IMG/VR virus record: IMGVR_UViG_3300033149_003963
Coordinates: 1-24,384 of that record
Length of the DNA stretch: 24,384 bases
Source: a virus
Reading direction: 5' to 3' (one strand)
Position 1 is the stretch's first letter, and the number at the start of each line of letters is the position of its first letter. Below, in pieces: positions 2,961 through 24,384 of the stretch. The position numbers and the translations under genes were made by a program. The notes under the pieces are model-generated. The model was not told where the DNA came from and did not search any database. It saw nothing but the letters and a program-made list of their open reading frames with translations.

Positions 2961-3200
2961 TCAGTTTTCCTTCTGGAGCATCCCGCCGCTCAGGATGTGA
3001 TACCACTTCTTCGGCCACCAGCCGTCACGAGTCCACTCACCCTCGGACATTGCCGACTTCATGTCAATGTCGCCGACCGCGATGGTGCCCGGCGATGGGT
3101 GAAAACCCAGCATTGCGCCGTGCGCGGTGCGCTTGCGAGGCTCCGCGATTGTCAGGATGGTCTCTCGGATTGCGGATGAGGCATCTCTGCCTTCGGGCAT
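2961..3200 (-). CDS. Small tail-tip protein of unknown function
   Basis: A 79-residue protein whose ATG overlaps the endonuclease stop (TGATG), with GAGGTG eight bases upstream. The N-terminal 20 residues (SSAIRETILTIAE) are helical; the middle (AMLGFHPSPGTIAVGDIDMKSAM) looks beta-like; then comes an aromatic stretch (EWTRDGWWPKKWYHIL). I do not recognise a family. Its place after the hub suggests a minor tail or baseplate component, once directly downstream of the hub before the endonuclease inserted. It ends three bases before the next start. Confidence 0.6.
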   Translation of the reverse strand: MPEGRDASSAIRETILTIAEPRKRTAHGAMLGFHPSPGTIAVGDIDMKSAMSEGEWTRDGWWPKKWYHILSGGMLQKEN

Positions 3201-3214
3201 CAGGGACTCACCTC
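3189..3214 (-). repeat. Right junction repeat of the homing endonuclease gene (downstream copy)
   Basis: GAGGTGAGT, then the stop of the endonuclease overlapping the ATGCCC start of the next gene, then AGGC. It mirrors the upstream copy at 3989-4017. Confidence 0.55.
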
Positions 3215-4000
3215 AGCCAGCATCTGCAAGTACCTCTCGTACTTGCGGTCGAGTCGAATCAGGTCGTGCGAATCTTGGTAAAGAGCAGTTGCGACGGCGA
3301 GGGGGAGGTGGCTGCCACAAAGCGCGAATTGATAGATGCTACCGTGTGGGTGAACTCTTGCCTTTGTGTCAGAGACAGTTTGGCACCAGCCGCGCACAGC
3401 CTCCATCATAGCTTTGGTGCCACTCCAACGAACATGCCACTTCCCACCGCTTTTGAAAATCGTGCCGTCACCGTCGAAGACACCCCGCCAGAAGTGGGAC
3501 CGGAGCCTCTCAGGGAGGAAGTCAGGCGGCTTGAGAGTGAGGCTCTTTCGAGGAGTAACAGCGTGTCGGGTGAGGTCGAAGACAAGCTGGGCACTAACAA
3601 GGGAAATCTTAGACTGAGTCCCACCCTTTGCAGGGTGTATCAGATAGTCGCTGTCCAGGCAGTCGAGGAGCTTCTGAAGGTAGCCTTTGTCCCCAGCAGT
3701 CAGGCTGACATCAACCCTATTGTTCTTCGGCAAAACACAACCATCTGCTCCAAGAAAGCCCAGCCAGTAGGCACGGTCGGGGGTGTTGACGTGCTCGAAG
3801 TAGGCATCGTCCACCTGGGGTTGTCTTGGGCTACCAGTATGTCGAGGCCTCGCTTGAATACCCTTGCGCTTGAGGATGTTACCGACAGTCGCTTGGCTGA
3901 GGTCAACAGCCTCACCAACCTGCTCCTGAGTTTGACCGGTCAGGTAGAGTTGAGTCGCTTCGGCTTCCTGCTCAAGTGTGACGGGAATGCCTCTGGGCAT
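3200..4000 (-). CDS. LAGLIDADG homing endonuclease with N-terminal helix-turn-helix
   Basis: A 266-residue protein. Residues 8-50 form a helix-turn-helix of the resolvase/Sigma-like type (TGQTQEQVGEAVDLSQATVGNILKRKG). Two LAGLIDADG helices follow: YWLGFLGADG at 77-86 with Asp86, and FWRGVFDGDG at 170-179 with Asp178, so it is a single-chain two-motif enzyme of about the usual size with both catalytic acids present. It is free-standing, not within an intron or intein as far as I can see. Such enzymes cut an allele lacking the gene and spread by repair. It sits between the hub and a small gene, keeps their translational coupling, and is flanked by near-identical junctions. Confidence 0.88.
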   Translation of the reverse strand: MPRGIPVTLEQEAEATQLYLTGQTQEQVGEAVDLSQATVGNILKRKGIQARPRHTGSPRQPQVDDAYFEHVNTPDRAYWLGFLGADGCVLPKNNRVDVSLTAGDKGYLQKLLDCLDSDYLIHPAKGGTQSKISLVSAQLVFDLTRHAVTPRKSLTLKPPDFLPERLRSHFWRGVFDGDGTIFKSGGKWHVRWSGTKAMMEAVRGWCQTVSDTKARVHPHGSIYQFALCGSHLPLAVATALYQDSHDLIRLDRKYERYLQMLAEVSP

Positions 4001-4017: not shown

Positions 4018-4806
4018 GATGGGCTTGCCCTCGCGGTCCAAGACTTGGGATAGCTCCAGCGTTTGACTATAGCGCCCACCCTCAAAGCGCCAGTTTTTGC
4101 GCGTGACTCGCCAGACGTGGGTGGGGTCTATGTCCATCTCGTCGAACTCGACCCGCGCGAAATCGTCTGGTTTGACCTCAGGACGGCCCTCCAGGACGAC
4201 GACGATGGTATTCCGCAGTTCCATCCGCCGCCGGAAGAGGCGGTTCGCCACCTGCCGTATCTCGTTGGCGTCGTCAATGGTCTCAATCCTCCACCAGTCC
4301 TCACCGATGAAGTCAGGCGAGGTCGAGTCCATCATCGAGGCATCATCAAAAAGGACCTTGGACTGCGCCTCCCACCCACTTCCCTTCATAGCCACCAGCA
4401 CGTTGAAGAAGTCTTCAGGGGTCTCGGCCTTGCGGAAGTCGAAGATGGTCTCCTCAGCAACCCCCGTGTCCTCGTCAATCACCAGGGTGACCTCATTCTC
4501 ACCTGTCTCGAACGAGCCTTTCGACGCAACCTCCAGCCCCTTGCGCAGGAAGTAGCAGCCTTCGATGTTGCGCGGACCCATCACCCAGTTCTTTCCATCC
4601 TCACTCAGCACAGCCGTCTCCATCTCCATCGCCATTGAAGCGTAGCCCCATTGAAGGTTCTTGGTCTGGCAAATTTCATCCAGCATCTCGATGAGTCCGA
4701 TGTCCGGCCCGAACTGGAGCAGCCGCTGCCCTTCACCAACCGGCAGGTAGAAGTCCATCCAGTTGTCCAGCGTTTTGCTGACGATGTGCAGGTCCCGGTG
4801 GTGCAT
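4003..4806 (-). CDS. C-terminal half of the baseplate hub (gpD/gp44-like)
   Basis: A 267-residue product from the ATG at 4806, chosen because GAGGAG lies six bases before it; an ATG at 4812 abuts the site. Hub features are visible: LLQFGPDIGLIEMLDEICQTKNLQWGY (about residues 30-56), and near the end ANRLFRRRMELRNTIVVVLEGRPEVKPDDFARVEFDEMDI followed by WRVTRKNWRFEGGRYSQTLELSQVLDREG, the typical close of gpD/gp44-type proteins. It continues the frame and fold of the upstream gene across one TAG. It ends in TGA two bases before the homing endonuclease start. Confidence 0.75.
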   Translation of the reverse strand: MHHRDLHIVSKTLDNWMDFYLPVGEGQRLLQFGPDIGLIEMLDEICQTKNLQWGYASMAMEMETAVLSEDGKNWVMGPRNIEGCYFLRKGLEVASKGSFETGENEVTLVIDEDTGVAEETIFDFRKAETPEDFFNVLVAMKGSGWEAQSKVLFDDASMMDSTSPDFIGEDWWRIETIDDANEIRQVANRLFRRRMELRNTIVVVLEGRPEVKPDDFARVEFDEMDIDPTHVWRVTRKNWRFEGGRYSQTLELSQVLDREGKPIEVSV

Positions 4807-6868: not shown

Positions 6869-8581
6869 TCAGTTTGTCACCTCGACGTTGGCCCGGAGAT
6901 GGGTTAGAAGGGTGGGTCCCAGCCAGGTGTTGCCTTCGTCCTTCGAGTGCCACTCGTAGACGTGCCTGCTGCTGGCCTTACGTGCTAGGACAATGAGCGT
7001 CTCACCATCCCCTTCAATATCAGCAGCATCGAAACCACTCGAATCAGGCAGCTCCCTGATGTCACCGGCGGCGTAAGTCGTCCACTCGGTCGGGTCACCC
7101 TTGCGCCGGAGGACCTCAATCTTAGTCCAGCCGATGTTAACTGCCCATTGAACCCCTTTCGGGTCGGTGAACATGCCGAGCGCACCTCCTGCGCGTGTTA
7201 TCAGGCCACCAACGATGCCGGGATGGTGGGTGCCGATGTTCAGCCAGTCATCCCATATCCTGCCAACTTCTGGCGAGGCCGGGTAAGCAGCAATATCGGC
7301 CATGCAGTAAGCGCAGAAGGCCCCGTAGAGATTCCGCTCAACCCAGAAGGGCTGGTCGAAAAGGTCCCTCTTCAGATAGAACCAACCCCCGACCAGGTCG
7401 GCGTCGCAGGGCCAGCGGCCACAGTCCATGCTGTGGTGCAGCCTCATGTTGCTTGGGTCAGACACGTCCACGGCAAACAGCCCGGCAGTTCCCGGCACAA
7501 TCCCCATCAACAGGTGGGAGAAGTCCTCGTCGGACCTCTGTATCCGCAGCGAATGAGGAGCACCCTGGTAGTACTTGCCACCGATGGGCAGGTAGCCCAA
7601 CCGCGTCGGGTGAAGTCGGTTCTCGGAGGCGTCGAGCGCCACAATCCCACGATAGTCCCTGTCCTCCAGGCGAGCTGAGACGTAGAGCATATCGTGGACC
7701 GTCTTATCATCCTCAGCAGGGTGGCCGTGCTCTTCCTCGTAGTCAGCTTTGCAGTGGTCCTCAACTTGCTCCTCAGTCCAGTCATCGTGTTCGGCCTTGG
7801 TAGCTACCAGACACTCCAGGTACTCGCGTGGCATTATCTCCTGACCTTCCTGGGCAACGACACTTTGCCCCGCCCAGCCTCCCCACCACCCCGGCGTGAA
7901 TGGGTCAGTCTCGAAGGCCACCTCTAACGCTGGCTCGACCTCCAGCGCCTCAGGTTCAGGGCAATGGAGGACGTAGAGGTTGCCGTCGTGTTGGGCAGGC
8001 ATGTAGAGGTAGTCGTCAATCCAGGCGAAGTCGGCAGGCCAGTCCCCCTCAGGATACCAGACGGTCGGTGTCCAGATTTGATTCACCAACTGCGGGTCGT
8101 CAGGGTCTGAGATGTCGTAGATGGTGAAAGCCGGGGGAAGCTCACCTGTTCGCTGCAAGAAGTTCAACCCGCTGAAGGCCCAGAGGTAGTGCCCGTGAAC
8201 GAACAGCCTGATGATGCAGTAGCCGGTCTCATCCCAAGGCCGAAGCGCCCTGACCAGTTGCATGTTCTCAGGGTCGCTGACATCAATGACCGCCAAGTGC
8301 TCGGCAGGTGCCTGGCAGCCCGAAGCATGGGTGCATTCGACGCCTGCCTCAGCATAAATGTAGTTGCCGACGCGGGTGATGTCCCCGTATTGACCTTCAA
8401 GCACTCCCACCAACCGGAAGATGCTCCACTCAGGGTAGCCCCCAGGCTCCCACGGCTCCTCAGGAGGCTCCGCCACCACCGGCACATAGGCTTGCAGCGG
8501 GTAACGCTCCGCAGGCTGCGGGTCCCATTGCTCCCTGAACCGGCTGGTGATGAAGGTGCACTCTGCGGGGTCGTAGCCCAT
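6869..8581 (-). CDS. Tail-tip protein with LVIVD-type beta-propeller repeats
   Basis: A 570-residue protein directly after the tape measure, starting ATG at 8581. LVIVD-like blade motifs recur: LAVIDVSDPENMQLVRAL (residues 96-113), FTIYDISDPDDPQLVNQI (152-169) and LFAVDVSDPSNMRLHHSM (368-385), with blade-like strands between (NLYVLHCPEP; YRGIVALDASENRL). Residues 251-292 hold a Cys/His-containing helical motif that recurs in the next gene. The C-terminal part (YEWHSKDEGNTWLGPTLL) has an Asp-box-like SKDEGNTW. Propellers of this kind are rare in tail clusters. In place of a distal tail gene it may be a hub-associated or receptor-binding protein. No enzyme motif is visible. Confidence 0.75.
   Translation of the reverse strand: MGYDPAECTFITSRFREQWDPQPAERYPLQAYVPVVAEPPEEPWEPGGYPEWSIFRLVGVLEGQYGDITRVGNYIYAEAGVECTHASGCQAPAEHLAVIDVSDPENMQLVRALRPWDETGYCIIRLFVHGHYLWAFSGLNFLQRTGELPPAFTIYDISDPDDPQLVNQIWTPTVWYPEGDWPADFAWIDDYLYMPAQHDGNLYVLHCPEPEALEVEPALEVAFETDPFTPGWWGGWAGQSVVAQEGQEIMPREYLECLVATKAEHDDWTEEQVEDHCKADYEEEHGHPAEDDKTVHDMLYVSARLEDRDYRGIVALDASENRLHPTRLGYLPIGGKYYQGAPHSLRIQRSDEDFSHLLMGIVPGTAGLFAVDVSDPSNMRLHHSMDCGRWPCDADLVGGWFYLKRDLFDQPFWVERNLYGAFCAYCMADIAAYPASPEVGRIWDDWLNIGTHHPGIVGGLITRAGGALGMFTDPKGVQWAVNIGWTKIEVLRRKGDPTEWTTYAAGDIRELPDSSGFDAADIEGDGETLIVLARKASSRHVYEWHSKDEGNTWLGPTLLTHLRANVEVTN
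7706..7831 (-). repeat. Shared Cys/His motif, copy in the propeller protein
   Basis: About 42 codons (residues 251-292) with the pattern EYxxCLVxT, then HxxW, then HCxAxYEExHGH and DD. About half the positions are identical to the copy at 5533-5658. Two Cys and four His are conserved between the copies. Confidence 0.65.
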
Positions 8582-17313: not shown

Positions 17314-17651
17314 TGAAGCACGACCCTCTGCACGATGTTCTCCGCCAGCAACTCAATCTCAGTGCGGGGCATGAAGGTCTTCCCTGCCTCACTCAGGGTG
17401 AAGTGGATGTGCCTATCCTCGCAGTGGGCCTTCAGCTTTTGCAGGGCCATCCCATAGCCTAAAGCTACCCCCGCTGCTGTGGTCAGCAGCCCTAGCAGCG
17501 CCGCAACGTCAACACGGATTGTGACGCCGTCGTCAGGGTTCACGGTGGATGGGGGTTGGGCATAGGCGTAGGGGAGTGCCACATAGCAGCCCATCACCAC
17601 TGCGAGCAGCACCCAGGGTATGGCGTTTGACTGCCAGAAGCGTTGAGTCAT
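17280..17651 (-). CDS. Two-segment membrane protein, holin candidate
   Basis: A 123-residue protein from the ATG at 17651, where GGGAGAAGG lies just upstream; an in-frame earlier ATG at 17675 falls inside the previous gene and lacks a site. Residues 11-31 are hydrophobic and end in AYAQP, so this could be a signal peptide or a first membrane helix. Residues 49-71 (AALLGLLTTAAGVALGYGMA) form a second segment. The last 50 residues are charged and helical with two Cys. Two short membrane segments fit a class II holin, but no endolysin lies nearby and small membrane proteins also occur in head clusters. Function is unknown. Confidence 0.6.
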   Translation of the reverse strand: MTQRFWQSNAIPWVLLAVVMGCYVALPYAYAQPPSTVNPDDGVTIRVDVAALLGLLTTAAGVALGYGMALQKLKAHCEDRHIHFTLSEAGKTFMPRTEIELLAENIVQRVVLQCREGMSSAPN

Positions 17652-17664
17652 CGTCCTTCTCCCT

Positions 17665-18639
17665 TCAGAGACCATACTTCGCCTTCACCCGCTCGACCCA
17701 CTCGCGCATCTCGGCCTTATCCGACTCGGATAGCGGCCTCAAGAAGTCCCTCAGGTCACGCGGCTCAGGCATCGTGCTGTAGTCCACGGCCCCGAAACCT
17801 GAGAGCGGCCTCTCGTCCTCGGTAGCCCCCGCCAGCACCTCCGCCGCCGTCTCAAACTCGACCTCCTCGTTGAAGAGGATGGGGGTCAGAACACAGCGGC
17901 AGCCGAAGTGCAGCGGCAAGCTGACTCCGTCCATGTCATCACAGCGAAAACAGCGCCCATCCATATACATGCAGCGTTCGCAGGTGCGGTTGTCGCCGAC
18001 CGCCGCGACTTGGACTCCCTGCACCACGGCGCTGGCGCGGTAGCGAGCCAGACTGCCGTGATTGTAAAGCGTGGCCGATTCGGTGCGAGCTATCGTTTCC
18101 CGATGATTAGTCGAGCGCCCGAAGCCCTCGGTCGCCAGGTGCATCATGGTCTGGCTGGTCGTCATCCCCTCCCGCACAGCCTCGGCCACCAAGTCGCGGC
18201 AGAGTTCGCGCCGCACCTCACTCAGCACGTGGCGCAGCGGTGGAACCCGCGTCGCGACGTACCGCTCAATGCTCTCCTCAGGGATGACCAGGTCCTCACC
18301 GACCAGCGCGAACCCCAGCGCCTCGTCCTCCACCGACTGGTGCGTCCACACCCGCGAGGGATGCAGCGCGGAGAGGACGCGCCAGCCCCGCCGCAATGCT
18401 GACTGGACCTCCTTCTGTGCCCGCGTCCAGCCTCGCGCAACGGCCTCCTCGAAAACCGCCTCAAGCGGCACAAGCGGGTAGGGCACGGCCAGCGCCTGCA
18501 ACGGCGTCTCGCAGGCCCCAACCTCGTCGAAATAGGCGCGGTCCGCATCCTGGAGGACCCGCCTGATGTCCTGGATGCAGAGGCCCAGGTCGTACTGCGC
18601 CGCCCTTGCGTAGATTCGCACGGCCTCGACGACGGCCAT
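17665..18639 (-). CDS. Head morphogenesis protein (Mu gpF / SPP1 gp7-like)
   Basis: A 324-residue protein. I start it at the ATG at 18639, two bases after the portal stop, rather than at 18822; the 61 extra residues would overlap the portal out of frame and are Arg/Ser-rich shadow sequence. The family signature is clear: ARTESATLYNHGSLARY from residue 184, then DNRTCERC with Cys220 and Cys223, a second Cys pair at 230 and 233, and PLHFGCRC at 242-249. The four to six Cys and the His suggest a bound metal. Proteins of this family enter the prohead in few copies and associate with the portal. The C-terminal 60 residues are acidic and helical (DLRDFLRPLSESDKAEM). Confidence 0.88.
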   Translation of the reverse strand: MAVVEAVRIYARAAQYDLGLCIQDIRRVLQDADRAYFDEVGACETPLQALAVPYPLVPLEAVFEEAVARGWTRAQKEVQSALRRGWRVLSALHPSRVWTHQSVEDEALGFALVGEDLVIPEESIERYVATRVPPLRHVLSEVRRELCRDLVAEAVREGMTTSQTMMHLATEGFGRSTNHRETIARTESATLYNHGSLARYRASAVVQGVQVAAVGDNRTCERCMYMDGRCFRCDDMDGVSLPLHFGCRCVLTPILFNEEVEFETAAEVLAGATEDERPLSGFGAVDYSTMPEPRDLRDFLRPLSESDKAEMREWVERVKAKYGL

Positions 18640-18640
18640 C

Positions 18641-20041
18641 TCAGGCCACCCACCCGTATCGTGCAGCCTGCTCGCGGGCACGCTGGCCCTCGGCCTGGAG
18701 CCGCTCCTCGCGCTCATTCGGCTCCAGGTCGGAAGACAGCGCCAGCACGTCGCTGAAGACCTCGCGCAGCTTGTCGTGGTCGGCCTGCGGCAGAGGGTCG
18801 CCAACCGCTGTCCGGCCCGCAATTCCTCGCTGCACCTTCTCGAAGACCGAGGCCAGCAGGTCCAGGTCCTTCGTCTGCAACGGCTCCCAGGCCCACCTGC
18901 CCAGGTCGGCGGGGGGCCTCTCGATATTGTAGGTCACCAGCGGTCTGACCAACTGGTGAACAATCACCTCGCCCAGCTCCTGACGGATACCGTCAAGCAG
19001 CAGCAGGAAGAAATCAAGACTTGTCTGCGACTGCGCCCTGCTCCCATGCTCCGGCTCTCGCATAAGCAACTGCGGCGTGAGCACACTCAGGAAGAGTTGG
19101 TCGTCCCAGTAACGCAGGATGGTGTCGAAGGCTTTCCCATCCCCGGTGGGGGAGAGGGTCTCCATCTTGAACGGAGTCTGCGGGTCAGCCGGAATGCCAA
19201 CCGCCATGCCCGGTTGCAAGTCACCAAAGAACCTGGTGAGGAACTTCGGCCAAGGAACCTGTTCGCCCGTGTCGGGGTCCTCGGTGGTCCCAGCCGGGCA
19301 GAGAAACACCGGCGTCGGCATCGCGGTCTTCTGGCAAAACGTATTCCAGTAGCCCTGCTGCTTCGTCTTCGAGTACCAGGCCGCCCGCGCCGACTGGAGC
19401 AAGCTCGCTCCGTACACCTGCTCTCTCAGCTCAGAGAACAGGGTGAAGTAGACGACATCAGCAACCTCGTGAGTGACCGGCTCCCCACCCTCCAGACTCG
19501 TCGGGAATTGAGTAACCCTCTCCACCCGCTTGGTCTTCTTGTCGAGCTTGATGCCATTGCCATCAGACCTGTAAGGGTTGAAGAAGGTCAGCGGATGGCA
19601 GAGGTCGAGGTGCTCGATGTACCACTCGCTCGCCGTGGTCCCCCAGGTCGGCTCCAACACCGCGAACCCGGCCCACAACGAGGACAGCATCTTGCCGACG
19701 ACGGCTCGCATCCCACCCTCAACCCTGGCAAGCAGGGCGCGCACCTTCTCCTGGACCGCCTCATCATCGTGGTGATAGTCACCCAGGCGCGACAATATCA
19801 GGGTCCTGATGACCAGCAACGCCATGCGCACGGTCGGGTCATAGGAGCGCATCAACCAGTACTCAGCGACGCGGTCATGCAGCGCTGGGAAGGGCTTGTA
19901 TGGCCCTACATCCCAGGCCTCCCACTCCCTCGCCCTGATGACGGCCTTCGCCGCGCCGCCCCCCGGCGTGGCAGGCTCCTCCTGGTGAGTTGCCACCAGG
20001 ACCAGGCTGCCGAAGCTGTTGTCAACGGGCACCGTCACCAC
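18641..20041 (-). CDS. Portal protein (Mu gp29/DUF935-like)
   Basis: A 466-residue protein starting with GTG at 20041, preceded by GAGGAGG, and overlapping the terminase stop by a few bases. Features of the portal families are visible: YDPTVRMALLVI near residues 67-78, SLWAGFAVLEPTW near 121-133, YGASLLQSARAAWYSK near 209-224, and a C-terminal helical stretch rich in Gln, Glu and Arg. The portal forms the ring at one capsid vertex that is the DNA channel and the docking site for terminase and tail. Position directly between terminase and the Mu F-like gene supports the call. The choice of the DUF935 family over other portal families is by eye only. Confidence 0.85.
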   Translation of the reverse strand: MVTVPVDNSFGSLVLVATHQEEPATPGGGAAKAVIRAREWEAWDVGPYKPFPALHDRVAEYWLMRSYDPTVRMALLVIRTLILSRLGDYHHDDEAVQEKVRALLARVEGGMRAVVGKMLSSLWAGFAVLEPTWGTTASEWYIEHLDLCHPLTFFNPYRSDGNGIKLDKKTKRVERVTQFPTSLEGGEPVTHEVADVVYFTLFSELREQVYGASLLQSARAAWYSKTKQQGYWNTFCQKTAMPTPVFLCPAGTTEDPDTGEQVPWPKFLTRFFGDLQPGMAVGIPADPQTPFKMETLSPTGDGKAFDTILRYWDDQLFLSVLTPQLLMREPEHGSRAQSQTSLDFFLLLLDGIRQELGEVIVHQLVRPLVTYNIERPPADLGRWAWEPLQTKDLDLLASVFEKVQRGIAGRTAVGDPLPQADHDKLREVFSDVLALSSDLEPNEREERLQAEGQRAREQAARYGWVA

Positions 20042-21393
20042 GCCACCCGCGCCTCCTCGAAGTCGAAATCGGCAGGTGCTGTTGAATGCACAAAATCTGC
20101 GGCCCTCACCGGGCTGCCGTGCGTCGCCGCCAGGCCCATCTCAGCGTACCTCCTGGCGTCAAGGGCGTGATTGAACTCCCGCGCCGGTGGTGCGTCGGCA
20201 ATCGGGTTACCATCGCGGTCCTCGCGATAGTGGTATTGTTTCAACTCGCTCAACGTATGCGGGCAGTTCGGCTCGACCACCTGGAGCGTCGGCATGATGG
20301 ACTGCACCTGCCGGATGCCCGGTATCACAGAGTTGTCGGCCTGCGTCACGTTCATGCCCGCCCGCTGCCAGGCCAGAATCGCGTTGGCGTCTTCGGGGTC
20401 TGCGTACCACATGCTGACCCCCCACTTCTTCGTCAGCTCTTGTGCCTCCGTGAGCCAGTCATTCCCAGGTTCCCCATGCGTTAGCTTGTTGGTCTCGTAA
20501 ACCTCGTCGAGCCACACACGCCGCCCCCACCGGTCAACCCCGTTGACCACCAGACAACCGGGTGAGGTCGTGCCCCAGTCCACGCCGCCGACGACGGCCC
20601 TCAGCTCGCTCCGTGGCGGAGCCTCCTGCACGCAGCACTTCTCGGCGTCGAAGTCGGCATAGACAAGACCCCTGAAGGTGACAAACTCAGCGCCCATCTC
20701 CTGCCGGTGCCAGTCCGAGCCGACGACATAGGCCTCCTCAAGCGCCAGAATGTCATCGGGCCTCAGCCCTGGGTTGTCGTAGGTCCGCCAATGGAAATAG
20801 GCGTAGCGGTCGCGCCTGTCGCGGGTCCAACCGCCCCGCCCCTTGACGAACGTGTCGTAGACCCAGTCCCTGCCCCTGGGCGTGGTCGTCATCCAGGCGC
20901 GGTGGGGGTAGCCGCCCTGCTGTGTCAGCCGCCCCACCAGCACTTGCCAGGCCGTATGCCTACACAGCGCCCCCTCGTCCAGCCAGGCGATGCTGGCCTC
21001 CGTCGCTCTAATACTGTCGGGGTCCGCCGCGTAGCAGTACTGGATGTGACTGCCGTTGTGAAAAGTCACGAAGTTGTCGGCGCGGTTCTCCTCGGCGAAC
21101 AGCGTCGGCGTCCCGTCCCCCCGCGTCCCCCACCAACCGGCCACCAGCCGAATGGTGGGGATGGGGCCGCCACGCCTGCGCAACATCGGGTACGTCGGCG
21201 CGGCGACCAGGGCCTCGATACCCGGATATTTCAGCAGGTGCCTGACTACATCGTAGGCGGCGACCAGGCTCTTGCCGCCTCGGATGCCAGCGACGACTCC
21301 ACGATACCGCGCAGGGCTGACCAGGAAATCGTGCTGGCCCTGGTGCCGCTCAAACCAGTTACATTCAGGAGGCACCGACCCGCTCAATGTCAT
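20035..21393 (-). CDS. terL: Terminase large subunit (packaging ATPase and nuclease)
   Basis: A 452-residue protein with the full motif set. The Walker A variant AGIRGGKS is at residues 35-42, Walker B SIAWLDE at 134-140 with Asp139 and Glu140, and the coupling motif WMTTTPRG at 167-174. The RNase H-like nuclease acids fit Asp272 (GGVDWGTTS), Asp332 (WYADPED) and Asp412 (NHALDARRY). It is the motor that threads DNA into the prohead through the portal and cuts it at the end. It overlaps both neighbours: its ATG lies within the small subunit gene and its last codons overlap the portal's GTG. Nothing is missing, so it appears functional. Confidence 0.95.
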   Translation of the reverse strand: MTLSGSVPPECNWFERHQGQHDFLVSPARYRGVVAGIRGGKSLVAAYDVVRHLLKYPGIEALVAAPTYPMLRRRGGPIPTIRLVAGWWGTRGDGTPTLFAEENRADNFVTFHNGSHIQYCYAADPDSIRATEASIAWLDEGALCRHTAWQVLVGRLTQQGGYPHRAWMTTTPRGRDWVYDTFVKGRGGWTRDRRDRYAYFHWRTYDNPGLRPDDILALEEAYVVGSDWHRQEMGAEFVTFRGLVYADFDAEKCCVQEAPPRSELRAVVGGVDWGTTSPGCLVVNGVDRWGRRVWLDEVYETNKLTHGEPGNDWLTEAQELTKKWGVSMWYADPEDANAILAWQRAGMNVTQADNSVIPGIRQVQSIMPTLQVVEPNCPHTLSELKQYHYREDRDGNPIADAPPAREFNHALDARRYAEMGLAATHGSPVRAADFVHSTAPADFDFEEARVAW

Positions 21394-21859
21394 GCAGCCG
21401 CCAGACCTCCCCGTTGCCGCCGTCGCCCAGCGGGTCGCCCGGACCGTGCACGGGCACCGCGACGACCCTCTGCTCGGCGCGGCTGTCAGCCTCGCCCAGC
21501 AAGAACGCCTTCAACCGAATGAGCTTGTCCAGGCCGCTGGCGCTGGGCGTGCCCTCCCCAGCGAGCAGGGCGTCGTAGGTGTGCGTGATGACCTCGTCCA
21601 GGCGCTCCACCTCGGCGACGGCCCATTTCACCTCCGCCTCGATGATGCGCTCGCGGGTGCGCCGCCTTATCTCGGCAATCATCTCCTCGAACTCCGGCTC
21701 GTTGGCAACCTCGCGGGCGGAGGTGGTGTGGAGGTTCACCTCCCGCGCCGCAGCCTCCAGGTTGCCGGTCCGGGCGTAGACCGCGATGAACCTGCGCTGT
21801 TCGCGCCGGTCCAGCTCGCTCCACCAGCGACGTTTTATCCTGGTCTCGGCCATGCTCAT
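21365..21859 (-). CDS. terS: Terminase small subunit
   Basis: A 164-residue protein directly before and overlapping the large terminase by 29 bases. Residues about 13-55 fit the helix-turn-helix of small terminases: RREQRRFIAVYARTGNLEAA, then AREVNLHTTSAREVANEPEF. A long charged helix follows (about 55-95), suited to oligomerisation. The C-terminal 60 residues are low in hydrophobic content and may contact the large subunit. The usual role is to bind the packaging site and load the large subunit onto DNA. Length and position are typical. The assignment rests on the helix-turn-helix pattern and context, since small terminases diverge quickly. Confidence 0.82.
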   Translation of the reverse strand: MSMAETRIKRRWWSELDRREQRRFIAVYARTGNLEAAAREVNLHTTSAREVANEPEFEEMIAEIRRRTRERIIEAEVKWAVAEVERLDEVITHTYDALLAGEGTPSASGLDKLIRLKAFLLGEADSRAEQRVVAVPVHGPGDPLGDGGNGEVWRLHDIERVGAS

Positions 21860-23445
21860 CCGGCCTTGCTAATCAACCTATCAGGGTGCGCCTGGATTGT
21901 GATGGCGTCACCGGCGTCGCCGTCCGCCCCATCCTCGGTCAGCACCACATCTCTCAAGAGCGGCACCACGAATGCGGCCTCGAAATAGCTGTGAATGAGT
22001 GCGTCGTTGGTCACCAGGTCGTCCGTGTTGACCGCGCTCAGAATGTGCCACTCATTGTGGCCTGGGAAGGTGCCCTCCTGCACCAGCAGCACCGACGTGC
22101 CGTCCTCGTGGGCGACGGCGGTGGTCCCGTTCGCACCACGGGCGGTGATGGTGATGTCGTTGCCTACGACGTTGGTGTATGTTATCTCCTCGTCATCAAT
22201 GAGCAGGGTTCCCGAAGTGGGGAAACCTGAGGCGTCGGTGACGGTGAGGGTCATGTCATCATGGGCGAACAACCCACCCTCGTTGATGGTGGTGAAGGCC
22301 AGGCAGACGAATGCGTTGTCGGCGACCGCGAAGTTTCCCAGGGTGGGGGCGTCGAGCAGGATGAGACCCTCGTTGTGGTCAACGTCGTGAATGGTCGCCC
22401 ATTCGTCGGTAGGGGTGTCATCCACGATGCGGATGTAGTCACCAGGCCTGAAGGCCGAGGCATCGGCGACGTGGAGTTCGTCATCGGCCAGGCAGTCCTC
22501 CGTCAGCAGCTCAGGTGAGGTGTGGTCCTTGACGAGGATATAGTTGCCGACCTGCCAGTTGGGGGTGCCGCTGCCGATGCCGGTGGAGTTGAGTGTCGTG
22601 CCCCCCGCCGACGAGAGTGAGGTCAGCGCAGCCACGTCGAGGTCAACAAGCAGCCCCTCCCGCGCTGACACGCGAATGGTCGGGGTGTAGGTGTGGACTT
22701 TGTAGACCGCCGTGCCGGTGTTATGAGCGGCGGCTGCGGTGCCATACTGGGCGCGGGTGAGGGTGGTGAAGCTCGTGGCGGTCTTGCCCCCGTAGGCGAT
22801 GGCCTCGTCGTCTACGATGATGTGGCCGGTGGCGGGGAAATCGCTGGTGTCCACAACGGTGATGGCGTCTGTCTCGTCGGAGGTGAGGCCGCCGTCGAGG
22901 GAGGTGGTCGGACCCTCACAGACCGCGTGAATGTCCGGCGTCCACGGATTGACCGCGCCCTTCGCGTCCACCAGGGCACGAAGTCGCGCCGCGCCTGCGG
23001 TTGCGGGGATGCCCCCGATGGCGGTGTGGCCGGTGGTGTGCAGGTGCGAGCAAAGGTTGGTCAATTCAGGGCATACATTCGTGCGGTCGAGCGCGCTGGC
23101 AATCTGCGCGTCGGCCCAACCCCGGTCGGCGGCGTAGCGGTGCGCCCTCCAGCGCCTCGCGGCTGCATACTGACGGATGGTGCCGTAGCCCCCAACCCCC
23201 TGGATGTGTTCAAGGAAATCAGAGAGGATGGGCTTGATGAGGGGGGAGAACTGCAAACCCTGGGCGATGTTGACATCCACCTGTTCGGCACCGAGGCCAA
23301 GGTCGGTCTCAACGTCGGGGTCGTCGGTGTCCGAGACACGGTCGTAGAAAGACCGGTCTCGCTGCGCTGCGGTGTGAACGTCGAGCCACGAGTCCGCAAT
23401 CCCGTCCCACACAAGCTGTCCGACTCGGTCGGCTATCAATGGCAT
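21856..23445 (-). CDS. Probable virion protein with repeated FCCH-like beta modules
   Basis: A 529-residue protein. The ATG at 23445 is preferred to an in-frame TTG nine bases earlier because GGGGAG lies nine bases before the ATG and abuts the TTG. Residues 1-185 are mixed helical with several Cys and His. After that come beta modules with a shared pattern: about 192-247 (TSDFPATG, then IIVDDEAIAYGG, then GTAAAAHNTGTAV), about 322-380 (DASAFRPGDYIRIVDD) and about 399-455 (DASGFPTSGTLLIDDEEI, then GTTAVAHEDGTSV). The first and third are clear copies. Such modules resemble the FCCH-like beta domains found in phage structural proteins, which is family knowledge applied by eye. The stop overlaps the small terminase start (ATGA). 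A head fibre or other surface component is likely; the exact role is unknown. Confidence 0.65.
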   Translation of the reverse strand: MPLIADRVGQLVWDGIADSWLDVHTAAQRDRSFYDRVSDTDDPDVETDLGLGAEQVDVNIAQGLQFSPLIKPILSDFLEHIQGVGGYGTIRQYAAARRWRAHRYAADRGWADAQIASALDRTNVCPELTNLCSHLHTTGHTAIGGIPATAGAARLRALVDAKGAVNPWTPDIHAVCEGPTTSLDGGLTSDETDAITVVDTSDFPATGHIIVDDEAIAYGGKTATSFTTLTRAQYGTAAAAHNTGTAVYKVHTYTPTIRVSAREGLLVDLDVAALTSLSSAGGTTLNSTGIGSGTPNWQVGNYILVKDHTSPELLTEDCLADDELHVADASAFRPGDYIRIVDDTPTDEWATIHDVDHNEGLILLDAPTLGNFAVADNAFVCLAFTTINEGGLFAHDDMTLTVTDASGFPTSGTLLIDDEEITYTNVVGNDITITARGANGTTAVAHEDGTSVLLVQEGTFPGHNEWHILSAVNTDDLVTNDALIHSYFEAAFVVPLLRDVVLTEDGADGDAGDAITIQAHPDRLISKAG

Positions 23446-23450
23446 AACCC

Positions 23451-23732
23451 TCAACTCCCCATGTCGGCTCTAGTCGGCCTAACCTCAAACTCCGTCTCGG
23501 TCTGCTCGTCGGCACGCTCCGGCCAGGTGTCTTCGAAGAGGCGCGGCGGTTCGTCCATCACTATCCTCGCACCCGGATACCTCAACCTCAACTCGGCAAG
23601 GCGCTCATCGGGCGTCTGGCCTGTCGGCAGGGCAACGGTTTGAGTCCGCGTCTTGCCACAACATCCGGCCTGAACCGTCAGCGTGGCGAGGTCGCCAGTT
23701 ATTTCAATTTTGACTACGCGGGCACGCGCCAC
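23451..23732 (-). CDS. Small protein of unknown function, first gene of the structural operon
   Basis: A 93-residue protein. I chose the GTG at 23732 because GGAGGAGG ends six bases before it. An upstream in-frame ATG at 23828 has no ribosome site and lies inside the leader palindrome. The N-terminal half (residues 5-37) alternates polar and hydrophobic residues around a Cys-Cys pair (AGCCGKTRTQTV), suggesting a small beta-sheet. The C-terminal 45 residues are charged and Pro/Glu-rich, probably flexible. The stop overlaps the region of the next gene's ribosome site, so the two are probably co-translated. I do not recognise a family; small genes just upstream of terminase are common and often uncharacterised. 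Confidence 0.6.
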   Translation of the reverse strand: MARARVVKIEITGDLATLTVQAGCCGKTRTQTVALPTGQTPDERLAELRLRYPGARIVMDEPPRLFEDTWPERADEQTETEFEVRPTRADMGS

Positions 23733-23812
23733 GAGCAACCTCCTCCAGACCCCGAACACAAGCCCCCTTTTGTTACATTCAGCACCCGAAGACGACCCCC
23801 CAAATGCGGAAG

Positions 23813-23855
23813 CCCCACCCGTTATCATCAGTTGGCGGTTGATGACCGGGTGGGG
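23813..23855 (-). promoter_or_regulatory. Large imperfect palindrome in the operon leader
   Basis: CCCCACCCG (23813-23821) pairs perfectly with CGGGTGGGG (23847-23855), and inside it TCATCA (23825-23830) pairs with TGATGA (23840-23845) around a nine-base loop, with a small asymmetric bulge between the two stems. If the promoter at 23920-23892 is used, this lies in the roughly 150-base leader before the first start codon at 23732. It could be an RNA control element or a second protein site. No T tract follows it. Confidence 0.45.
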
Positions 23856-23866
23856 TCATGGAGAAG

Positions 23867-23887
23867 CCCAACAACCTGTTGTTCGGG
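23867..23887 (-). promoter_or_regulatory. Operator-like inverted repeat at the expected transcription start
   Basis: AACAAC and GTTGTT face each other across a two-base centre, and the arms extend to CCC/GGG with one unpaired base, giving a 21-base near-palindrome. It begins about five bases downstream of the -10 box, so it covers the expected start point of the promoter. There is no T tract on either side, so it is not a terminator. A repressor or activator site is the natural reading; the binding protein is unknown. Confidence 0.45.
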
Positions 23888-23891
23888 AATC

Positions 23892-23920
23892 AGAATAGCA
23901 CGTTGAGGTGTGTGTGTCAA
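23892..23920 (-). promoter_or_regulatory. Sigma70-type promoter for the leftward structural operon
   Basis: On the minus strand, a perfect -35 box TTGACA (23920-23915) is separated by exactly 17 bases from TATTCT (23897-23892), which matches four of six positions of the -10 consensus. The expected start point is near 23885. It lies in the only gap of about 300 bases in the window and faces the whole run of minus-strand genes. The boxes are seen directly; activity is inferred. Confidence 0.65.
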
Positions 23921-23933
23921 CAGGGTGAGCGCC

Positions 23934-23955
23934 AAAAAACGGCCCAGGAGCGCCG
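23934..23955 (-). terminator. Candidate intrinsic terminator
   Basis: Read on the minus strand, CGGC and GCCG form a four-pair GC stem around an eight-base loop, followed directly by six Ts (23939-23934). It lies about 80 bases past the stop of the gene ending at 24035 and just before the promoter at 23920-23892, which is where a terminator separating two units would sit. The stem is short, so termination may be weak. Confidence 0.4.
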
Positions 23956-24034
23956 CGCTGCATTTCGATGGGGCAAGGCCCACACAAGAGCTTCGCGTCG
24001 CACCACGGCCCACCAAGCGACGCCGGTGAACCCG

Positions 24035-24352
24035 TTAGCGCATGGCCTGCAACACGAGGTGCGCGACCGCACTCTCGTGAGCAGCGTCGCCGGTGGTGAT
24101 GGCAACGCGGATGCCGTCGCGCTCACCCAGGGTGGGGGCGTCGGGCAACTCGAACTCAACTCCGCCCTCAGGCGCGGCGAGGGTGAGGGGCCGCGCCAGC
24201 GGACCCGCGCTCGCGGCGACGGTGGCTTCGCCCTCGACGCCCTCGGCGTGGAGGGTCGCCCTCGTCAGCCTGGCGGGGATGCACAGCGGTGAAAAGGCTC
24301 CGAGGAGCAGGCCAGGTGCGGCGTGGAGTGGTAGGGTGACCAGCAGTTTCAT
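24035..24352 (-). CDS. Small beta-rich protein of unknown function
   Basis: A 105-residue protein. The ATG at 24352 follows a clear Shine-Dalgarno GGAGG seven bases upstream, and the stop is TAA. There is no signal peptide or convincing membrane segment; the first 20 residues are moderately hydrophobic but rich in Pro and Ala. The rest is a run of short hydrophobic strands separated by Gly, Pro and acidic turns, with a LGERDGIRVAITTGDAA stretch near residues 75-91, the pattern of a small beta-sandwich virion protein. I do not recognise a family. It lies upstream of a candidate terminator and promoter, so it probably ends the preceding transcription unit rather than beginning the structural operon. 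Confidence 0.6.
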   Translation of the reverse strand: MKLLVTLPLHAAPGLLLGAFSPLCIPARLTRATLHAEGVEGEATVAASAGPLARPLTLAAPEGGVEFELPDAPTLGERDGIRVAITTGDAAHESAVAHLVLQAMR

Positions 24353-24384
24353 GTCGTCGCCTCCGATTCGCGAAACGTCCTCAG

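Follow-up and report, generated by a model that had tools for sequence, protein, structure and literature searches.

The viral sequence studied here comes from a temperate phage that is unclassified, and a region on its minus strand is likely the signal at which expression of the structural genes begins. We propose, at roughly even chances, that this region joins a late-operon promoter to a 5' leader whose predicted fold would hide the Shine-Dalgarno (SD) sequence of the first gene, keeping its translation low until the fold is opened. In this model, the packaging/structural operon would be transcribed by host-type RNA polymerase from a start near 23884, set by a near-consensus promoter with an extended -10, and the leader of ~150 nt would fold with its 5' segment CUUCUCCAUGACCCC paired to the SD of the first gene (GTG 23732) around a 43-nt hairpin and a second hairpin. 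With the SD held in this closing helix, translation of the first gene would stay low until the helix is opened, either by a protein or by ribosome loading at AUG 23859. What we infer from the sequence and its computed folds is that RNA polymerase uses the promoter and that the leader adopts this fold in vivo and regulates through it. On the whole, we regard the region as an ordinary late promoter with a structured leader that is probably functional, its predicted control elements being of known kinds, and the main use of the finding is as a candidate.

Phage and gene neighbourhood

The window, that is, the whole stretch of DNA analysed, spans 24,384 bases and comes from IMG/VR as a linear virus record. 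Its minus strand is a tailed-phage structural module with large terminase, portal, major head protein and tape measure genes. The promoter/leader region heads this module, with the structural genes downstream in the same direction, and the gene direction is reversed beyond their far end. Reading along the minus strand, the order is a 105-aa gene, a terminator-like site, the promoter, a palindrome, the leader with its hairpin, GGAGGAGG, and the GTG at 23732 of a 93-aa gene (Table 1).

Table 1. Features of the control region and leader, in window coordinates
Feature	Position	Strand	Basis or remark
Weak intrinsic-terminator-like site GCGGC/GCCGT + T6, after the 105-aa gene	23934..23956	-	Fold at shuffle level
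Sigma-70-type promoter TTGACA-17-TATTCT, TGN extended -10	23892..23920	-	Scan; two sister promoters in contig L002
Near-palindrome CCCGAACAACAGGTTGTTGGG over the expected start point; possible operator	23867..23887	-	Chance-level by itself
Anti-SD strand CUUCUCCAUGACCCC of the leader (limits approximate)	23852..23866	-	Predicted fold
Putative 26-codon leader ORF MTPPGHQPPTDDNGWGFRIWGVVFGC, without SD	23779..23859	-	Frame from AUG 23859 to UGA
Leader hairpin, 16 pairs, 9-nt loop, 2-nt bulge, -25.5 kcal/mol	23813..23855	-	Predicted fold
SD segment GGGGUCUGGAGGAG of the first late gene (limits approximate)	23739..23753	-	Sequestered in predicted minimum-energy fold
First gene of the late operon, 93 aa, GTG start	23451..23732	-	No known family
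Complementary leader segments CUUCUCCA/UGGAGGAG and GACCCC/GGGGUC			

One metagenome supplied two further contigs, of this phage or one nearly identical to it, which extend the phage to about 35 kb. L002 (11,411 bp) matches window positions 17634-24384 at 99.5% and adds ~4.7 kb of upstream sequence. The other contig, G002, has 23,627 bp and was read as L004 and L006; along L004 its identity to the window is 99.9%, and it shares an overlap of 114 identical bases with L002. Upstream of the region, in the same direction, lie genes for a PTPS/QueD-like protein, a tyrosine recombinase, a replication-initiation-like protein, an HTH protein and a second tyrosine recombinase. Judged from the gene content on its two sides, the region would be the divide that sets an early or integration module apart from the late module.

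Several other features of this phage were observed. There are three tyrosine recombinases in its ~35 kb (L002 932-1576, L002 4122-4697 and L006 1-519), the second being ~55% identical to recombinases of Salinibacter ruber plasmids. The PTPS/QueD-like gene (L002 651-953) lies downstream of a perfect consensus promoter (L002 216-244). Inside the structural operon, an endonuclease gene (phrog_4645; window 3200-4000, minus strand) has LAGLIDADG-like motifs by eye. Compared with the window at about 2294-2300, L006 has ~75 extra bases (8099-8173) near a gene for short repeated peptides (GELxFSYG), a variation in repeat number between near-identical phages. In L002, a 12-bp tandem repeat (3845-3987) would encode repeated (R/L)ASL in one frame, and an 18-bp perfect inverted repeat, GGAGCAAAAATGTCCTGT, surrounds repeats of AGAGAGTCGTT just before the HTH gene (3239-3347) and is a possible replication or regulatory element.

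The phage is without close relative in the collections searched. With the terminase, portal, major head protein and first gene as queries, the viral contigs gave only the two near-copy contigs of one metagenome; the terminase query gave no match in genome contigs, and no DNA similarity to named phages was found. A terminase profile detected 79 further loci, the closest full-length match being 38% identical, but neither the first gene nor the 532-aa gene nor the 164-aa gene ahead of the large terminase is present at any of them, and they therefore offer no leader to align. No diverged relative was found in these collections. In the sole other contig, identity is 100% from the promoter through the palindrome and leader into most of the first gene; this contig is too close to inform on conservation.

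Promoter and terminator-like site

All four features named in the original prediction, a terminator-like stem, a promoter, a near-palindrome and a leader palindrome, are present on the minus strand where it had placed them. The promoter agrees with the consensus at 10 of 12 positions, its hexamers lying within the 16-18 nt separation taken for -35 and -10 elements. It had been described as the only such promoter facing left in the window, and this holds for our scan of the window, in which it is the sole minus-strand site of its kind and faces the structural genes. L002 carries two sister promoters, at 216 (TTGACA-17-TATAAT, 12/12) and at 4035 (TTGACA-17-TATACT, 11/12), both with TGN, both facing the same way and both upstream of the late promoter. 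It is unlikely that a small genome would by chance contain three near-consensus promoters built to one design. The sequence evidence thus supports a promoter that is good against chance, apparently of sigma-70 type and placed to drive the structural genes, in line with the control region first proposed.

The terminator fared less well. A stem of the CGGC/GCCG type followed by T6 is indeed there, with four G-C pairs; however, it is weak, and the segment folds just as its shuffles do (z 0.00). In the scanned region of 3.4 kb, five terminator-like sites were counted versus 1.6 expected.

Predicted leader fold and Shine-Dalgarno pairing

The 43-base leader palindrome of the original prediction lies at 23855-23813, and folding gives it an energy of -25.5 kcal/mol with a z of -4.64 for its composition. 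Among 16,228 sampled 43-nt windows on either strand, 24 fold as stably, in a genome that is GC-rich and in which stable folds are common; the whole leader (~150 nt) folds at z -1.9. On these predictions we take the hairpin to be real. It has no T run after it and is therefore not a terminator, and an Rfam search of the region gave no match at the gathering score nor at E up to 10.

The strongest new feature, missed in the original prediction, is the predicted pairing of CUUCUCCAUGACCCC with GGGGUCUGGAGGAG, which was noticed after inspection of the predicted fold. In the minimum-energy fold, the two strands form 14 pairs with one bulge, a duplex of -26.4 kcal/mol, so that an upstream strand complementary to the SD is found and the SD is paired. 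This duplex energy is reached by 2 of 2000 dinucleotide shuffles of the upstream part and at 23 of 4848 minus-strand positions of the window, some of which may be the site itself. Among 27 start positions tested with an 18-nt segment, the pairing at this gene is the strongest. The SD has an unpaired probability of 0.12, which rises to 0.70 when the anti-SD strand is occupied, the two folds being separated by ~4 kcal/mol. The value of 0.12 is not extreme, since 23 of 300 shuffles are as low, and start sites buried to a similar degree are seen at several internal genes.

GGAGGAGG lies six bases before GTG 23732, the start of the gene that follows the leader. A possible N-terminal extension of the first gene to ATG 23828 has a GC3 of 0.62, lower than in the gene itself (0.70) and in other late genes (0.75-0.90), and GTG 23732 is therefore the favoured start; with this lower GC3 and no SD of its own, ATG 23828 is rejected as the true start. 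AUG 23859 of the putative leader ORF falls inside the anti-SD strand. As this ORF lacks an SD, its translation is a guess and its role is speculative. We consider it improbable that the late operon is gated by a leader switch in which a ribosome on the leader ORF, or a factor at the hairpin junction, would open the first late gene.

Alternative explanations

The original prediction read the palindrome as an operator at the start point, through which a phage-encoded regulator would control late transcription; a repressor or activator such as the HTH protein (L002 3363-3848) could play this part. Indeed, the palindrome sits over the start point with 9-bp arms and one mismatch, the phage encodes an HTH protein, and another of its promoters also has a start-point palindrome, the int promoter. 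There, a perfect 9-bp inverted repeat, ATACCGATA-N8-TATCGGTAT (L002 4072-4097), lies over the start and is matched in quality by 0 of 300 shuffles; given its 8-nt spacer beside an integrase gene, it may be an operator or a recombinase core-type site. The palindrome of the late promoter is much poorer than this one, and by itself is at chance level: in the 45-nt stretch behind the -10, 35 of 300 shuffles have one as good, as do 45 of 308 L002 windows, and the whole 24-kb window holds 19 palindromes of its quality. The search for further copies proposed in the original prediction found none, the window and the sister contigs showing this one copy only. Nor is anything alike found at the two other promoters of the phage: the int palindrome differs in sequence, and the first promoter has yet another. 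Outside this phage, the promoter-plus-palindrome pattern had no match in viral contigs. In bacterial genome contigs it had two, one of them before a transport-type operon in a Lachnospiraceae bacterium; they stand in unrelated places and are taken as coincidence. The extended palindrome occurs in four other viral contigs with similar sequence context, inside coding sequence where examined (L094), and a literature search for the palindrome found nothing. Being at chance level, in single copy, unlike the palindromes of the other promoters, and elsewhere coding or unrelated, CCCGAACAACAGGTTGTTGGG does not support a shared phage regulator acting through it, and we hold the operator reading to be unlikely.

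More weight is due to the explanation that the late promoter is ordinary and its GC-rich leader unregulated, base composition having given rise to the palindrome, the hairpin and the SD pairing. The chance level of the start-point palindrome, the shuffle level of the terminator, the equally stable hairpins at several other places in the window and the strong SD duplexes at 23 of 4848 places all agree with it; it is nevertheless somewhat doubtful, as a hairpin of z -4.64 and an SD duplex reached by 2 of 2000 shuffles fall in the same 150 nt of non-coding leader. The stem-loops might instead be 5'-proximal mRNA stabilisers, unrelated in sequence, that slow decay behind the three phage promoters. 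Hairpins do occur at ~+16 (7-bp arms), ~+2 (9-bp arms) and ~+30 (the 43-nt hairpin), similar in position and different in sequence, but only the int-promoter palindrome is clearly non-random and the fold energies computed for the 60 nt after each promoter are ordinary for this genome, which makes this quite unlikely. Finally, as the inverted repeats are non-coding and lie upstream of the large terminase gene, they could mark a DNA packaging site (cos or pac) instead of gene control. Several genes, however, separate the region from the large terminase gene, two contigs run straight through it, and it contains a good promoter and SD; we give this explanation very little credence.

Comparison with known systems

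The sigma-70 promoters of temperate phages may carry operators at the start point, as in the lambda CI/Cro type. The phage here is alike in having a near-consensus promoter with a palindrome over +1, but differs in that this palindrome is single-copy and at chance level, and in that no repeated operators are common to its promoters. Leader-peptide translation attenuators of the erm type (cf. PMC6851288) are similar in another respect, since the start of a short ORF lies in the anti-SD strand and ribosome occupancy of the leader is predicted to free the downstream SD; in contrast to them, the putative leader ORF here is without SD, and without a known inducer or stalling.

Phage leaders that hide the SD are established for T4 genes e, soc, 49 and I-TevI (PMC3014915). 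As in the leaders of gene e and I-TevI (PMC3014915), an upstream mRNA strand here is predicted to pair with the start region and hide the SD in a phage transcript, the predicted pairing strands of our phage being ~100 nt apart. In the case of T4 gene e, an open transcript is made from a later promoter located within the structure. In our phage, no internal promoter that would make a transcript with its SD exposed was found in the promoter scan, and the only promoter found precedes both strands; opening would therefore need a factor or translation of the leader. If the fold is real, expression of the structural genes in this lineage would be restrained at translation as well as at transcription. 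We think it probable that translation of the first late gene is held back by the leader, much as for T4 gene e, and not that the region supplies an operator for a phage regulator.
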